Of a stretch of 64,000 bases of DNA, positions 2,298-15,800 are shown one piece after another. The notes beneath the pieces were generated by a model. That model searched no databases. It was not told where the DNA came from and saw nothing but the letters and a program-made list of their open reading frames with translations. The position numbers were made by a program, and so were the translations under genes. Numbering within the stretch: position 1 is the stretch's first letter; the number at the start of each line of letters is the position of its first letter. Origin of the DNA: Adhaeribacter pallidiroseus (lineage in GTDB: Bacteria > Bacteroidota > Bacteroidia > Cytophagales > Hymenobacteraceae); assembly GCF_003340495.1 (NCBI RefSeq), contig NZ_QASA01000001.1, forward strand, positions 3,534,001-3,598,000. Direction: 5' to 3'.

Positions 2298-4472
2298 ATG
2301 AAAAAGATAATGCTTTTTATAATAGCATTGGTTAGCACTTTGGTGGCCAATGGGCAAAACACCTTAACGGCTTATATTAAAGACGCCGAAAATCAATCGC
2401 CCTTAGTGGGAGCTACTGCTTTATTAAACAACTCGCCAATTGGTACTACCGCTGACGCTACCGGCCAGGTAGTTATTAAAAATATACCAAACGGATCGCA
2501 AACTTTCCGATTCTCTTTTGTGGGTTACCAGGAGCAGGTAGCGCACATTACCTTCCCCAGAACAACTGCCGAACCGATTATTATTTTACTGGAAGCAAGC
2601 GGCTCCGAGCTGGAAGCCGTGGAAATCACGTCCACCCGCAGCACCCGCACCATCCAAGATATACCTACCCGGGTAGAGTTTATGGCGGGCGAAGAACTGG
2701 AAGAAAAAGGCAACATGAAACCCGGCGACATCCGGATGATTTTAAGCGAAAGTACGGGCATTCAAACCCAGCAAACGTCGGCCACGTCGGCCAATGCCAG
2801 TATCCGGATTCAGGGTTTAGATGGCCGGTACACGCAAATTTTAAAAGATGGCTTTCCTTTGTATGCCGGTTACTCGGGTGGTTTGGGCTTGTTGCAAACG
2901 CCTCCGCTGGATTTAAAGCAAGTAGAAATCATAAAAGGCTCGGCTTCTACGTTGTACGGCGGTGGCGCCATTGCCGGGTTGGTAAACTTAATTTCGAAAA
3001 CTCCGCCGGAAAAGCCCGAGCTCCGTTTTTTGTTCAATGGCACCTCGGCGGGCGGCCTGGATTTAAATGGTTTTTATGGCCGGCGTTTTAAGAAAACCGG
3101 ACTAACTATTTATGGAGCCCGGAACAGTAATGCCGCATACGACCCTTCCGGAACCGATTTATCGGCGATTCCTCAATTTAGCCGGTATACTTTCAATCCG
3201 CGTTTGTTTTTTTACCCCACCCAGAAAACCCAACTAAACCTGGGCATTAACACCGTTTTTGAAAATCGCTTAGGGGGCGATATGCATTATATTAAAGGCG
3301 AACAACCAAACAATCATTCCTATTTTGAGCAAAACAAAACCCAACGGCTCTCTACGCAATTTGCCGGGAGTTATCACTTCAATAACTGTAGCCAGATAAA
3401 TTTAAAAAACAGCGTTAGTTATTTTAACCGGACACTTACGCTACCCCAATATGCCTTTGCAGGAGCGCAAGTAAGCACTTTCAGCGAAGCTACTTATTCG
3501 CGACAAGGAGAACAAGCCGACTGGGTTACGGGAGTTAACCTTTGGACGGAACAATTCCGGGAAAAACAGTTGCCAGCTACGCCGCTCCGGAATTATAACC
3601 AGACCACCGCAGGCGCTTTTGTGCAAAGTAGCATTAAAGCTACCGATTGGCTACATCTGGAAACTGGTCTTCGGTCGGATTACGTGGCAGATTATGGCTT
3701 TGCTTTTTTACCCCGCATTTCGGCTTTGTTTAAAATAAAGCCGAACTTAACTTCCAGGTTGGGCGGTGGCTTAGGCTACAAGGCTCCTACTATTTTTACC
3801 GAGGAAAGCGAACGCTTGCAATACCAAGGAGTTTTACCCATAAGCCCGGATAACAATAAATTAGAGCGTAGTTACGGGGGTAATCTGGATTTTACCTACC
3901 GGGCTACTTTGGCTAACGATGCCATTAGTTTTAATATTAACCACTTATTCTTTTATACTTTTCTGAAAAACCCTTTAACGCTGGTGCCTTCGGCGAACAA
4001 ATTATACCAGTTACAAAATCGCTTAGGGCACTTAGATACCGAAGGAACCGAAACCAATATAAAAATCGGTTACGAGGGCTTTAACTTATTTCTGGGTTAT
4101 ACCTTTACGGACACCAAAATTCACGAAGGTGAGGTTAAAACAATTAATCCCTTAACACCCAAACACCGGATAAATGCGGTATTGCTGTACGAAGTGGCAG
4201 AAAAATGGAAACTGGGATTAGAGTCGTATTACTTTAGCCGGCAAAAGCTTAGCGATAATACCACGGGCAAATCGTACGTAATTTCTGGCTTTATGGCAGA
4301 AAAGCGCTGGGAACAGTTTTCCGTTTATGTTAATTTTGAAAATTTCTTAGATGTCCGGCAAACCCGGTTTGATTCCATTTATACCGGTAGCATTACCAAT
4401 CCGGCTTTCCGGGATATTTATGCGCCCTTAGATGGTTTTATGGTGAATGGCGGCTTGAAACTTCGTTTGTAG
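2298..4472 (+). CDS. TonB-dependent outer-membrane receptor
   Basis: 724 aa. Signal peptide ending VANGQ; a carboxypeptidase-regulatory-like beta domain at about residues 22-100 (LTAYIKDAENQSPLVGATALL, IGTTADATGQVVI); a plug domain at about 115-235 with IRIQGLDGRYTQILKDG and VEIIKGSASTLYGGGAIAGLVNLI; then a 22-strand-type barrel ending in an aromatic/basic tail (GGLKLRL). The length is typical of siderophore, metal or cobalamin receptors, not of the longer SusC class. It is probably co-transcribed with the DUF6660-like gene. The substrate cannot be read from sequence; a metal is possible from the neighbour. Confidence 0.9.
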   Translation: MKKIMLFIIALVSTLVANGQNTLTAYIKDAENQSPLVGATALLNNSPIGTTADATGQVVIKNIPNGSQTFRFSFVGYQEQVAHITFPRTTAEPIIILLEASGSELEAVEITSTRSTRTIQDIPTRVEFMAGEELEEKGNMKPGDIRMILSESTGIQTQQTSATSANASIRIQGLDGRYTQILKDGFPLYAGYSGGLGLLQTPPLDLKQVEIIKGSASTLYGGGAIAGLVNLISKTPPEKPELRFLFNGTSAGGLDLNGFYGRRFKKTGLTIYGARNSNAAYDPSGTDLSAIPQFSRYTFNPRLFFYPTQKTQLNLGINTVFENRLGGDMHYIKGEQPNNHSYFEQNKTQRLSTQFAGSYHFNNCSQINLKNSVSYFNRTLTLPQYAFAGAQVSTFSEATYSRQGEQADWVTGVNLWTEQFREKQLPATPLRNYNQTTAGAFVQSSIKATDWLHLETGLRSDYVADYGFAFLPRISALFKIKPNLTSRLGGGLGYKAPTIFTEESERLQYQGVLPISPDNNKLERSYGGNLDFTYRATLANDAISFNINHLFFYTFLKNPLTLVPSANKLYQLQNRLGHLDTEGTETNIKIGYEGFNLFLGYTFTDTKIHEGEVKTINPLTPKHRINAVLLYEVAEKWKLGLESYYFSRQKLSDNTTGKSYVISGFMAEKRWEQFSVYVNFENFLDVRQTRFDSIYTGSITNPAFRDIYAPLDGFMVNGGLKLRL

Positions 4473-4602
4473 AAGAACACTACTCGCTTAAAAAAATCAG
4501 GTTTGAAATTACTAAAAAGCAGTTTTAAGCCTGATTTTTTAAATTTTTTAATTCCATCAGCCGACTTTGCAGTGTTTTTTTTCGCAATTACTAAAATACT
4601 GT

Positions 4603-4887
4603 TTATAAGCAATGGCGGTAATTAAGCAACTCGTCTTTTAAAGATTCTTCCCGTTCTTTAGCTTGGTTAATGTTATTTAATAAGGCAGTTCTATCCGCAC
4701 CCTGGCTGTTAGGCAACTGTGCTTCCAACAACAATATTTCTTTTTGAATGGCTTCTACCTGGGTAATTAAACCCGAAAGAAACGATGGGCTGGGGCATTC
4801 TACTAAAGGTTCATCATCATCGCCGGAGCAGCCAACTAGGCCGGAAAGTAACCCGGAAAGCAGTAAAAGCATTAAAAATTGTTTCAT
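4603..4887 (-). CDS. Small acidic surface lipoprotein with coiled-coil segment
   Basis: 94 aa from the ATG at 4887. A longer reading to 4911 adds eight residues in front of the signal peptide and is less likely. Lipobox LVGC; after the Cys come Ser, Gly and a run of acidic residues (CSGDDDEP), as in the surface-export signals of Bacteroidota lipoproteins. Residues about 45-90 (LITQVEAIQKEILLLEAQL and following) have heptad character and should form a coiled coil. It converges on the TonB receptor with a 130-bp gap. The family is not recognised. Confidence 0.65.
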   Translation of the reverse strand: MKQFLMLLLLSGLLSGLVGCSGDDDEPLVECPSPSFLSGLITQVEAIQKEILLLEAQLPNSQGADRTALLNNINQAKEREESLKDELLNYRHCL

Positions 4888-12607: not shown

Positions 12608-12652
12608 TTACAGGTTAAACTGATTTTAACATTACATTAAATTTTACATAAA

Positions 12653-12708
12653 AATAAAGAAGTTGTACCTACTTTAGAATTATTTGAAGTAGATACAACT
12701 TCTTTATT
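12653..12708. terminator. Intrinsic terminator after metG
   Basis: 22-bp arms at 12653-12674 and 12687-12708 with one mismatch and a 12-base loop; the left arm starts A-rich and the right arm ends T-rich, so it can work in both directions. It separates metG from the low-GC nuclease gene. Confidence 0.8.
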
Positions 12709-12810
12709 CTTTACACTACTTATTTTGCAATTGTAAAAAACACACAGTTAAGTGTTAAAAACAACAAGACATTAGTTCTTCTATTAGGATATTTAAAAAT
12801 TATTTAAAAA

Positions 12811-14832
12811 ATGGAACAAACTCAGTCAATAAAAGACCTCATAGTTGACATTGATGAAAAAAAAGTCTATTTACCCGAATTTCAAAGGGACTTTGTTTGG
12901 GAAATATCTAAAACTTACGACTTGTTTGACTCACTTATAAAAGATATTTTCATTGGTGCTATAATTTTTGGCATCCCTTCCTTTGACATAGCTATCCGAG
13001 AAATTGATAATAGGAAAAAAATTGCAAAAGGCAGGAGAAGGCCTTCCCTTGTAGTTAAGACTATAACTAAAAAAGAAATTGAAGATATAAATAAAGTTGG
13101 TGGAAATTTTAGATTAATACTTGATGGACAACAGAGGACCACTTCAATTTATAGAGCCTTAAAGGGAACCGATGAAGTTTGGTTCATCTCAAAAAATGAG
13201 GATGAAATAGAGGCAGGCAGCTTTGAAAATGCAAAGCTTGAAGAATTACTTGAAGAGATATCTGGTGAGCAAGATCCTGAGAGGCTTTCAATTAGGCTTT
13301 CAGATGTTTGGGATATTGAACAAAATGACTATGATGAAGATGAAATTCGAGATAAGTTCTTTTATACTACCGCTTATTATAAGATGTATTCAAGTGATGA
13401 AGAATTTGACAGAAAAGCTGAATTTAAGAAGTTCCGTAACTTAAGAAAAAAGATTGCAGATCTATTTAAATCAGAAAAACTACTTTCTTATTATCTTCTT
13501 GACATGAATCTGGAAAAGTTTGTTGTCTTTTTTGAAAGAAGTAATACAAGAGGTGTACAGTTAAATTTTATTGATATTCTAGCAGCAAAGCTTTATACTG
13601 GAAATTTCAATCTTAAAGAAAAGATTAAAGAATTTGAGATTCAAAATCCAAACATATATTTAATTCCTGAGATAATAGTCCGTTCAATTGCATTTATAAA
13701 GAGTTCTCCAAAGGAGATTGATCGAAATTATATTTTAACTTCATTGAATGCTGACGATTTTAAAAGATGGTGGGATAGTGCTTGCAAATTATATAAAGTT
13801 ACTTTAGATTTTCTATATCAGAATAATTTTATAATATCCCAAGAATGGATGCCATATGATAATATGATAATTCCTTTAATGAATTTTTTACAAGAGGTGG
13901 GTGGTGATTTCCATAGAATGAATCTTAATCAAAAAAAGTTTATAGAATACTGGTATTGGAATTCTATCTTCTCACTTAGGTATTCAGGTTCATCAAATGA
14001 AAGAATTATTGAAGATTCAAATATATTGATTCAAATAGCTAGAGAGAAAAAGATAAATTCTTCAAGTTATTTTAATAGGTTATCCAAAATTCAAACGCTT
14101 TCTACAGATGACATTTACTCGTTTGACAAGAAGGCAAATGCTGTTTATAAGGGTATATTAAATCTAATTAATTACGAAAAATCTGGCTTAATAAATTGGA
14201 ATAATGATGCTAAACTTTCATTAAATTCCTCATTAGAAGATCATCATATTTATCCAAAGAACTATTTAAATCAATTATTAACTACTGAAAATGAAAAAGA
14301 TTTAATTGATTGCGTAGCTAACAGGACTTTAATGCCAAAAATTCAAAACATTAAAATTAGCGACCAAGCGCCTTCCAAATATCTCAACGAAATTAAAGAT
14401 TTAAATAAAAATATAGAGAAATCCTTAGATAATCATTTAATAACAACAGATCTGTTAAATGGTGAGTATGATAATGAATTTAGTTTCTTTATAGAATTAA
14501 GAGCGAACTCCATCTTTGAAATTATTAAAAAGAGGCTAATTGACACAAGAGATTTGATTAAAGATGAATTTTATGAAGAAATAAAGTATGATGAAGCAGT
14601 TAATATAAATGTTTATAGTACTTATAAAGGTAAAAAGGCAGAAGCAACATTTAATCCAGCAACAGCAAAAGTATTTTTTAAAGGTAAATTATACGCAAGC
14701 CCGAGTGCAGCAGCAATTGCGGTAAAGATTGAAAATGGCGCAAGCGATACTGCCACAGAAAATGGATGGACATTTTGGAAATTTACTGACGAGAACGGAA
14801 TAGAGAAAAGAATTAATGATTTGAGGAAATAG
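12811..14832 (+). CDS. DUF262/HNH nuclease (GmrSD-like) with RAMA-like C-terminal domain
   Basis: 673 aa. N-terminal DUF262 (ParB-like) domain with YLPEFQRDFVWE (about residues 17-28) and LILDGQQRTTSIYRAL (about 102-117); a long helical middle; a DUF1524-type HNH motif with LEDHHIYPKNYLNQ (about 475-488) and CVANRTLMP; and a C-terminal module from about 605 with SPSAAAIAV, NGWTFWKF and a final LR, which fits the RAMA/DUF4357 class linked to modified-DNA restriction. DUF262-DUF1524 proteins include the type IV GmrSD enzymes, which cut glucosylated 5hmC phage DNA. The codons are far more AT-rich than those of the neighbours, a sign of transfer. It stands alone, without methylase or helicase partners. 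Confidence 0.82.
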   Translation: MEQTQSIKDLIVDIDEKKVYLPEFQRDFVWEISKTYDLFDSLIKDIFIGAIIFGIPSFDIAIREIDNRKKIAKGRRRPSLVVKTITKKEIEDINKVGGNFRLILDGQQRTTSIYRALKGTDEVWFISKNEDEIEAGSFENAKLEELLEEISGEQDPERLSIRLSDVWDIEQNDYDEDEIRDKFFYTTAYYKMYSSDEEFDRKAEFKKFRNLRKKIADLFKSEKLLSYYLLDMNLEKFVVFFERSNTRGVQLNFIDILAAKLYTGNFNLKEKIKEFEIQNPNIYLIPEIIVRSIAFIKSSPKEIDRNYILTSLNADDFKRWWDSACKLYKVTLDFLYQNNFIISQEWMPYDNMIIPLMNFLQEVGGDFHRMNLNQKKFIEYWYWNSIFSLRYSGSSNERIIEDSNILIQIAREKKINSSSYFNRLSKIQTLSTDDIYSFDKKANAVYKGILNLINYEKSGLINWNNDAKLSLNSSLEDHHIYPKNYLNQLLTTENEKDLIDCVANRTLMPKIQNIKISDQAPSKYLNEIKDLNKNIEKSLDNHLITTDLLNGEYDNEFSFFIELRANSIFEIIKKRLIDTRDLIKDEFYEEIKYDEAVNINVYSTYKGKKAEATFNPATAKVFFKGKLYASPSAAAIAVKIENGASDTATENGWTFWKFTDENGIEKRINDLRK

Positions 14833-15028
14833 GAGTAATGAATTAAAGAAATGTTTTATAGGTTAAGTTTATGTAAGAAGTTTCTAATTAGTTTTATACA
14901 ATTTTGCTTAGCATTTGTGTAAGCAGGCTCTACGCATTTTAGGACAGTCAATCTCCAGGTTGGTGTAACTGGTAATTAGGAATGCCTGCTAAACTTAAAA
15001 TATTACTTAAAAGCCCCCAAACTAACCC

Positions 15029-15319
15029 ATGCTCTCCTCCGAAGAAATAGAACAAAAGATTAAAGACATTAAACCTTTTCTTCAAAAGGAATATTTGATC
15101 GACCAAATTGGTTATTTTGGATCTTTTGCCAGAGGCGATTACCGGGAAGATTCGGATGTGGATATTCTGGTGGCGTGTAAAAGAGGCATTGGCTGGAAGT
15201 TTTTTGATTTAAAAGATTACTTAGAATCGGTGCTTGGCAGAAAGGTGGACCTAGTTACCGAAAACTCTCTGAGAAAGCAGTGGAAGGAAAATATTCTGAG
15301 CCAAGTGAAATACTTATGA
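15029..15319 (+). CDS. mntA: MntA-type minimal nucleotidyltransferase antitoxin
   Basis: 96 aa. The nucleotidyltransferase motif GSFARGDYREDSDVD fits GSx10DxD exactly, with the third carboxylate in KVDLVTE. In characterised MntA/HepT pairs this enzyme AMPylates a Tyr of the HepT toxin and so neutralises it. The stop codon overlaps the start of the HEPN gene (ATGA at 15316-15319), which is the standard operon form of this system. Confidence 0.88.
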   Translation: MLSSEEIEQKIKDIKPFLQKEYLIDQIGYFGSFARGDYREDSDVDILVACKRGIGWKFFDLKDYLESVLGRKVDLVTENSLRKQWKENILSQVKYL

Positions 15320-15678
15320 AAAAAGAAGAACGGAGTTTTCGAGAATATATGGAAGACATGATCGAATCTATAGACAAGATTTTGAAATACATTGGAACAA
15401 TCTCCAGCGTAAATGATTTTTTAAATAATGATTTGGTAATAGATGCGGTAACTAGGAATTATGAGATTATTGGAGAAGCAGCAAACAAGATACCTTTAGA
15501 GATCAGAGCCAAATACCCGGAAGTTCCTTGGAAACAAATGTATGGCTTGCGGAATTTTGCTGTTCATGATTATCACAAAATAGACCATATAATTCTTTGG
15601 GAGATAGCACAGGACCATCTTTTAAAAAATAAAACTATGTTGGAGAGTATCCTTAAAACAGAGAGCAGCCAAGACTAG
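15316..15678 (+). CDS. hepT: HepT-like HEPN ribonuclease toxin (DUF86)
   Basis: 120 aa from the ATG overlapping the mntA stop; a reading from 15280 lies inside mntA and is rejected. All-helical DUF86 protein with the RNase motif RNFAVHDY, an exact Rx4HxY: Arg and His for RNA cleavage, Tyr as the AMPylation target of the partner. NYEIIGEAANKIP, conserved in the family, precedes it. The toxin and antitoxin motifs are both intact, so the pair should be active. Confidence 0.88.
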   Translation: MKKEERSFREYMEDMIESIDKILKYIGTISSVNDFLNNDLVIDAVTRNYEIIGEAANKIPLEIRAKYPEVPWKQMYGLRNFAVHDYHKIDHIILWEIAQDHLLKNKTMLESILKTESSQD

Positions 15679-15800
15679 TTATACCTGTTTGATTTTGTTT
15701 TAAGATTTAACTTAACTTCCTTCACTTTGGTATGCGGAGAGTTGGCAAAGTAGTTTCTCCACATAGCAAATTATTATATCACTGGCGTTGAGCCAGTTGT

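Follow-up and report, generated by a model that had tools for sequence, protein, structure and literature searches.

The gene at positions 12811 to 14832 of the window (the whole 64,000-nucleotide stretch of DNA that was analysed) encodes a 673-aa protein in which a DUF262 domain is followed by a divergent HNH nuclease region and a C-terminal domain of the RAMA fold. On balance, we favour the reading that this gene encodes by itself a restriction enzyme with the GmrSD/BrxU/DndI fold and has spread horizontally; the RAMA-fold tail would serve as an extra DNA clamp. The gene is sporadic in its distribution, AT-rich and without a constant neighbour, and a one-gene restriction enzyme is therefore its best reading. 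The features of the gene and its product are the following.

12811 to 14832, forward strand: gene for the 673-aa DUF262-HNH-RAMA protein, with ATG start and intact frame
12811 to 13620, forward strand: N-terminal GmrSD_N/DUF262 (ParB/Srx-like NTPase) region, residues ~1-270 (PF03235 over residues 7-261)
13123 to 13137, forward strand: DGQQR motif, residues 105-109, kept in 35 of 35 aligned rows
14131 to 14535, forward strand: divergent HNH nuclease region, residues ~441-575, with H479, P482, N504 and N513 kept in 35 of 35 rows
14239 to 14256, forward strand: DHHIYP motif, residues 477-482 (DHIYP in BrxU)
14605 to 14829, forward strand: RAMA-fold tail, residues ~599-673 (PF18755, AlphaFold2, and Foldseek match to 7ydw)
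14698 to 14706, forward strand: S-P-S, residues 630-632, aligned with MPND S113/S115
14761 to 14778, forward strand: NGWTFW, residues 651-656, where N651/W653 correspond to CcrM N330/W332 and W653 to MPND W135

All four peptides quoted in the earlier, sequence-only reading of this DNA are present, DGQQR starting at residue 105, DHHIYPK at 477, SPSAAAIAV at 630 and NGWTFWKF at 651. The gene is also as AT-rich as had been noticed: its GC content is 29.5%, compared with 43.0% in the rest of the window, and values as low as this were found in 10 of 1240 sampled stretches of 2022 bp. Furthermore, the gene was lower in GC than its flanks in all 10 gene-and-flank pairs of homologues, the window's own pair included.

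Distribution

Within the genus, a full-length match was detected in one of eight genomes, the gene's own. Some DUF262 match was present in 12 of the 204 family genomes, full-length in the own genome only, and in the phylum sample some match was found in 42 of 395 genomes, extending through the tail in three of them (the own genome, G301 and G379). The three-domain order nevertheless does occur elsewhere, in four close copies (L002-L005) that are 76-83% identical and come from Niastella, Ferruginibacter, Mucilaginibacter and another Bacteroidota bin; G301 apparently corresponds to L004. This high identity across families, together with the patchy presence, suggests horizontal transfer.

More distant relatives were also found. 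A 51% copy (L067, the same as L088) is located on an IMG/VR contig, preceded by portal and head genes and followed by a homing-endonuclease-like ORF. Herpetosiphon L048 has a divergent RAMA tail (E 8.9e-5), recognised by reading the ORF, and the genome collection also yielded a GIY-YIG + RAMA protein (L006; RAMA, 54.7 bits). The single-protein scan of viral contigs returned no relative, and the phage collection gave four records, none of which matched the tail. For plasmids, no alignment went past residue 590 among the matches listed (20 of 212 records), and the plasmid relatives L084-L086 stop after the HNH region, at 557-573 aa.

The enzyme body

The DUF262 sensor with DGQQR that had been proposed from the sequence is borne out, the motif lying at residue 105 and the GmrSD_N/DUF262 model PF03235 matching with an E-value of 1.2e-25 and 91.2 bits against a Pfam cut-off of 33.2. 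The proposed DUF1524-type HNH domain held in part: the DHHIYPK motif at residue 477 and the BrxU fold agree with it, but PF07510 (DUF1524, GmrSD_C) had no match to the 673-aa protein at E ≤ 1, and the label is therefore one of motif and fold rather than of Pfam. The PADLOC candidate-defence model HEC-05 covers residues 2-576 (E 4.7e-25); our literature search found no paper on this model.

A first AlphaFold2 model, made from 6 rows, had too low a pLDDT in the body, with pLDDT 83-90 over residues 601-670. A second model was built on a 35-row alignment to which viral relatives had been added, that is, the protein itself, L002-L005 and 30 viral proteins (30 of the 31 non-redundant viral ORFs, L103 being left out, were used in the alignment and in the tree described below). 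This model reached a mean pLDDT of 86.4 and a pTM of 0.72. Foldseek returned four PDB matches for it at E ≤ 0.001, namely three BrxU chains and DndI, with best E-values of 1.7e-15 for BrxU (7p9k) and 4.9e-4 for DndI (9jfl). Identity to BrxU in the structural alignment was ~14-16%, and the 587-residue BrxU chain aligned by sequence to residues 6-259 only. TM-scores to BrxU were merely 0.36-0.43, with rmsd 17-20, and we therefore claim the domains but not their arrangement.

Residues Q25, R26, D105-R109, F241, N245, H479, P482, N504 and N513 are invariant in all 35 rows, and S41 is kept in 34. The motifs that Machnicka et al. 2015 (PMC4619093) list for GmrSD are QR, DGQQR and FxxxN, together with E/D-H-N-N nuclease residues. 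The first three are all present here (Q25, R26, D105-R109, F241, N245), as are H479, N504 and N513, while the acidic nuclease residue is found in part: the residue before H479 (H478) is H in 29 rows and D in 6, and E or D is common one or two places ahead of residue 478. In BrxU, defence is reported to be abolished by changing S42, Q101, R102 or H475 (PMC8565348). These positions match S41, Q108, R109 and H479 here, and BrxU D474 corresponds to H478. The motifs and the predicted structure support a GmrSD-type enzyme body of the BrxU/DndI fold.

The RAMA-fold tail

PF18755 (RAMA) matched the tail alone with E 3.8e-8 (33.7 bits) and the whole protein with E 1e-6 (29.1 bits). Since the score lies under the curated Pfam cut-off of 35.2, we speak of a RAMA fold. 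The objection that residues ~600-673 might have no match to RAMA thus falls away. Of the RAMA/DUF4357 resemblance suggested earlier, the RAMA half stood, with a fold match to MPND, but the DUF4357 half did not: a tail that is DUF4357 proper was rejected, its E-value being just 0.036. The tail of the close relative L002 matched PF18755 with E 4.4e-8, that of L067/L088 scored 19.6 bits with the Pfam RAMA model, and that of L051 had no Pfam RAMA match at E ≤ 1.

With the 6-row model, the best PDB match found by Foldseek was the MPND RAMA-DNA complex (probability 1.00, E 0.19). The same complex was sixth among the matches of the 35-row model (probability 1.00, E 0.45), and this entry, 7ydw, was the top single-domain PDB match in both. 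In a PDB profile search with the tail, CcrM (E 0.77) and MPND (E 1.3) were both weak and were outranked by an unrelated pilus protein (E 0.23), and the pairing of residues given next therefore leans on the fold match. MPND S113, S115 and W135 align to S630, S632 and W653 of the tail, and CcrM N330, G331, W332, L349 and R350 to N651, G652, W653, L671 and R672 (chain and published residue numbers differ by constant offsets of 1 and 8 for MPND and CcrM, respectively). By eye, S-P-S and N-G-W occur in each of the three kinds of GmrSD tail, being shared with the tails of two unrelated RAMA-bearing GmrSD proteins. The models and the profile match point to a real, folded RAMA-fold domain.

Clamp or reader

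In MPND, the serines and the tryptophan of the RAMA domain are described as binding the DNA backbone with no base contact; alanine changes almost abolish DNA binding, and binding is unaffected by 6mA, for which there is no preference (PMC9963953). Likewise, the C-terminal domain of CcrM is described as binding phosphates of the non-target strand with no base contacts, and is named a nonspecific DNA-binding domain (PMC6787082). According to a 2024 paper, it was not possible to confirm that RAMA prefers 6mA; RAMA fusions are named there as a subject for later study (PMC11037411). Because the tail residues that are kept correspond to backbone contacts, and because MPND is blind to 6mA, we put a clamp before a reader.

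In the preferred reading, the DUF262 domain would bind and hydrolyse NTP through a pocket made of S41 and D105-R109, and this step would let the HNH domain (H479, N504, N513) cut invading DNA, presumably in a dimer that serves in defence. The tail would grip the sugar-phosphate backbone next to the cleft through S630, S632, N651, W653 and R672, a hold that could either raise affinity or fix the cut position. The choice of target would be made mostly by the enzyme body, the target probably being modified phage DNA, as in BrxU. BrxU is reported to cut 5mC, 5hmC and glc-5hmC DNA (PMC8565348), and modification sensing in GmrSD/BrxU enzymes needs no RAMA-type tail.

The sequence-only reading had instead made the tail the enzyme's own reader of modified bases, a hypothesis that we mildly disfavour. 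A true reader function of the tail, for 6mA or for a bulkier phage base, by which it would set the specificity of the enzyme, seems possible though rather unlikely. RAMA accompanies methylases and nucleases of modification systems and has been suggested as a reader in such settings (PMC12839542, PMC11037411), its repeated joining to GmrSD bodies is what would be expected of a plug-in sensor, and the GIY-YIG enzyme CMoRE is presented as an example of a C-terminal domain that can be a sensor (PMC12923530). Against this stand the backbone contacts and the indifference of MPND RAMA to 6mA. Moreover, the host has at least one HsdM-kind N6-methylase (PF02384 E 2.9e-74), a candidate by sequence, and a general 6mA reader could therefore endanger the host.

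Independent origins of RAMA tails on GmrSD bodies

Other GmrSD bodies carry RAMA tails as well. Our own profile detected RAMA in at least two of 51 viral relatives, L088 (= L067) and L136, which is a lower bound because six of the 51 ORFs are shorter than 500 aa and may be cut. L136 is a GmrSD_N + GmrSD_C + RAMA protein (RAMA, 39.0 bits), and L071/L141 has the order GmrSD_N + GmrSD_C + RAMA + DUF4268 (RAMA, 67.3 bits); both scores are above the Pfam cut-off. The tail of L136 had no match in plasmids. A RAMA search of a phylum sample (296 genomes) gave 12 matches, comprising the own genome, G301, nine loci that were examined and L080, which was left out; from the nine loci, seven ORFs were run against Pfam, L075 and L079 giving none. 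In L136, L077 and L078 the hits of the DUF4357 model and of the RAMA model cover overlapping residues.

A quick tree was made of 42 bodies with their tails removed, in which L141 forms a very long branch. On this tree, 3 changes suffice to explain the 10 RAMA rows, compared with a mean of 9.2 after shuffling, and none of 500 shuffles was as low. A single clade of RAMA-bearing bodies was rejected (p-AU 0.000345), and L136 grouped with the tail-less L137 and L138 with support 100. We conclude firmly that RAMA tails joined GmrSD bodies independently at least twice; a third joining is probable, given the very long branch of L141. The three changes may include losses, but the nesting of L136 favours gain. 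A bolder version, in which RAMA tails are interchangeable sensors of phage base modification, acquired at least three times by GmrSD enzymes, and the present lineage is a self-contained one-gene type IV system, mobile across phyla, whose specificity resides in the tail, strikes us as doubtful.

Two further loci may be recorded here. On plasmid pMTS1 of Cupriavidus sp. P-10 (L139), an ORF at 3491-4252 has a RAMA tail (PF18755 E 5.8e-5) and overlaps the patatin-like ORF directly downstream, at 4249-4629 (PF01734 E 2.2e-15), possibly forming a RAMA + patatin pair. At 4123-12001 of L141 (G346), the gene for the GmrSD + RAMA + DUF4268 protein is followed on the same strand by ORFs of 323 aa and 948 aa and by a further ORF.

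Gene neighbourhood

The gene is separated from metG by a repeat found in a repeat search.

12650 to 12711, forward strand: inverted repeat with 25-nt arms, 92% complementary, and a 12-nt loop, between metG and the gene

A scan for consensus terminators did not list this repeat, which likely ends metG transcription; the DUF262-HNH-RAMA gene would therefore be a unit of its own. On its other side, the MntA/HepT neighbours reported earlier are indeed there, with an NTP_transf_2 match at 15029 (7.2e-15) and a HepT-like match at 15316 (4.8e-25), but the pair was absent by eye from all seven homologue flanks (L002, L003, L004, L005, L051, L048 and L049). MntA/HepT as part of the system was rejected since the pair is not conserved beside homologues; it is an accidental neighbour. 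The pair itself, at 15029-15678 of the window, is intact, with a 4-base overlap (ATGA at 15316-15319); its scores of 49.7 and 46.3 bits do not reach the NCBIfam cut-offs of 60 bits.

No neighbour recurs among the homologues. Unrelated genes surround L003, L004 and L051, whereas L005 has Hachiman hamA (8.2e-115) and hamB (E 0) 663 bp downstream (PADLOC was run on eight neighbours, from L005, L048 and L049). The notion of a one-gene enzyme therefore survives: the homologues with a tail do not all belong to one larger operon and have no constant partner gene. Two homologues are not clearly lone genes. In Niastella populi (L002), the gene begins 55 bp after two same-strand ORFs, radical-SAM-like by eye, so that co-transcription is possible there, and the tail-less Deinococcus relative L049 has an N6-methylase gene 4 bp upstream.

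Several observations were made on these surroundings. At 6024-9945 of L002, a histidine/serine-rich ORF, a 124-aa ORF and the two radical-SAM-like ORFs lie upstream of the homologue on the same strand, an arrangement that may resemble a His-Xaa-Ser cassette. In Herpetosiphon pHAU01 (L048, 10744-17740 and 356-7823), the genes ahead of the homologue code for a GajB-like helicase and for a 1525-aa protein that matches a PADLOC candidate model.

The 3′ flank of metG (window 12608-15800) varies within the genus, holding different small defence-like cargo or nothing. Among four genus genomes, G000 has the DUF262-HNH-RAMA gene with MntA/HepT, G003 a 416-aa ORF with a PIN-like ORF, G007 a different ORF and G004 nothing. 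Between the gene and mntA, positions 14905-14966 form a short dispersed repeat with a match in six of the eight genus genomes; one copy, 81% identical, lies next to the metG-side insert in G003, and other partial copies are 79-91% identical. An integron or folded site at 14895-15005 was rejected, the single-strand fold being no better than that of shuffled sequences (z 0.02).

These surroundings bear on whether the gene is one of defence in the strict sense, rather than a selfish or element-maintenance nuclease, a degenerate enzyme or a part of a larger MntA/HepT system. The L067 copy, between phage head/tail-like genes and the homing-endonuclease-like ORF, would fit the former kind of nuclease, and the window copy lies 196 bp from mntA. 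Such readings are nonetheless improbable, given that the frames are intact, that the motif residues are conserved throughout the 35 rows and that MntA/HepT was not seen beside other copies in the seven flanks read.

Comparison with known systems

It is very improbable that the protein works as do SspE and DndI, phosphorothioate-sensing DUF262-HNH nickases, by sensing a mark on host DNA that then licenses it to attack phage: it shares the fold of DndI and its order of DUF262 and HNH domains, as these are described in PMC11662687, but phosphorothioate sensing was rejected, as the sensing tyrosine (DndI Y25 in the same source) is replaced by F24 and dndC is absent from the own genome at E ≤ 0.001 (the search covered dndC alone). 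Position 24 is F in 23, I in 6 and M in 6 of the 35 rows, the tyrosine of P-x-Y-Q being absent, and those flanks of tailed homologues that were read showed no modification genes. The tail is a further difference from DndI/SspE.

The preferred reading, a restriction enzyme with a clamp, places the protein closest to the GmrSD-family type IV enzymes BrxU (7p9k, 7p9m) and Eco94GmrSD, with which it shares the DUF262 motifs QR, DGQQR and FxxxN and the HNH motif, and in the case of BrxU the fold. It differs from both in an HNH region too divergent for PF07510 and in the added C-terminal tail. The combination of GmrS, GmrD and a small C-terminal domain is also that of the DUF4357-bearing GmrSD homologues of Machnicka et al. 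2015, although RAMA fits the present tail better and the DUF4357 match falls short of significance. Their survey of 1119 GmrSD homologues names DUF4268, DUF4357 and DNA_binding_1 as added domains (PMC4619093). In view of this survey and of the overlap between the DUF4357 and RAMA models, the architecture is in substance already in print. The GIY-YIG-RAMA protein L006 has a like tail on a different nuclease. L136 and L071/L141 likewise join a GmrSD body to RAMA, but their bodies are distantly related to the present one (L136 is 21% identical) and the fusions have a separate origin. A 2025 review (PMC12707154) refers, in an author biography, to work on fusions of RAMA with HNH endonucleases, and we found no test of a RAMA-bearing GmrSD enzyme in the open-licence literature. 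What is added here is that GmrSD bodies have gained RAMA independently, at least twice and probably three times.

The finding turns the vague question of whether RAMA reads modified DNA into a clean test, with one protein, a tail of 75 residues and named contact residues. Natural controls exist in the tail-less relatives with a like body, such as the Deinococcus protein L049, and in L137/L138 beside L136. If specificity resides in the tail, GmrSD enzymes would form a family whose readers can be plugged in; if the tail is a clamp, the label of modified-base reader that RAMA commonly bears would need correction.
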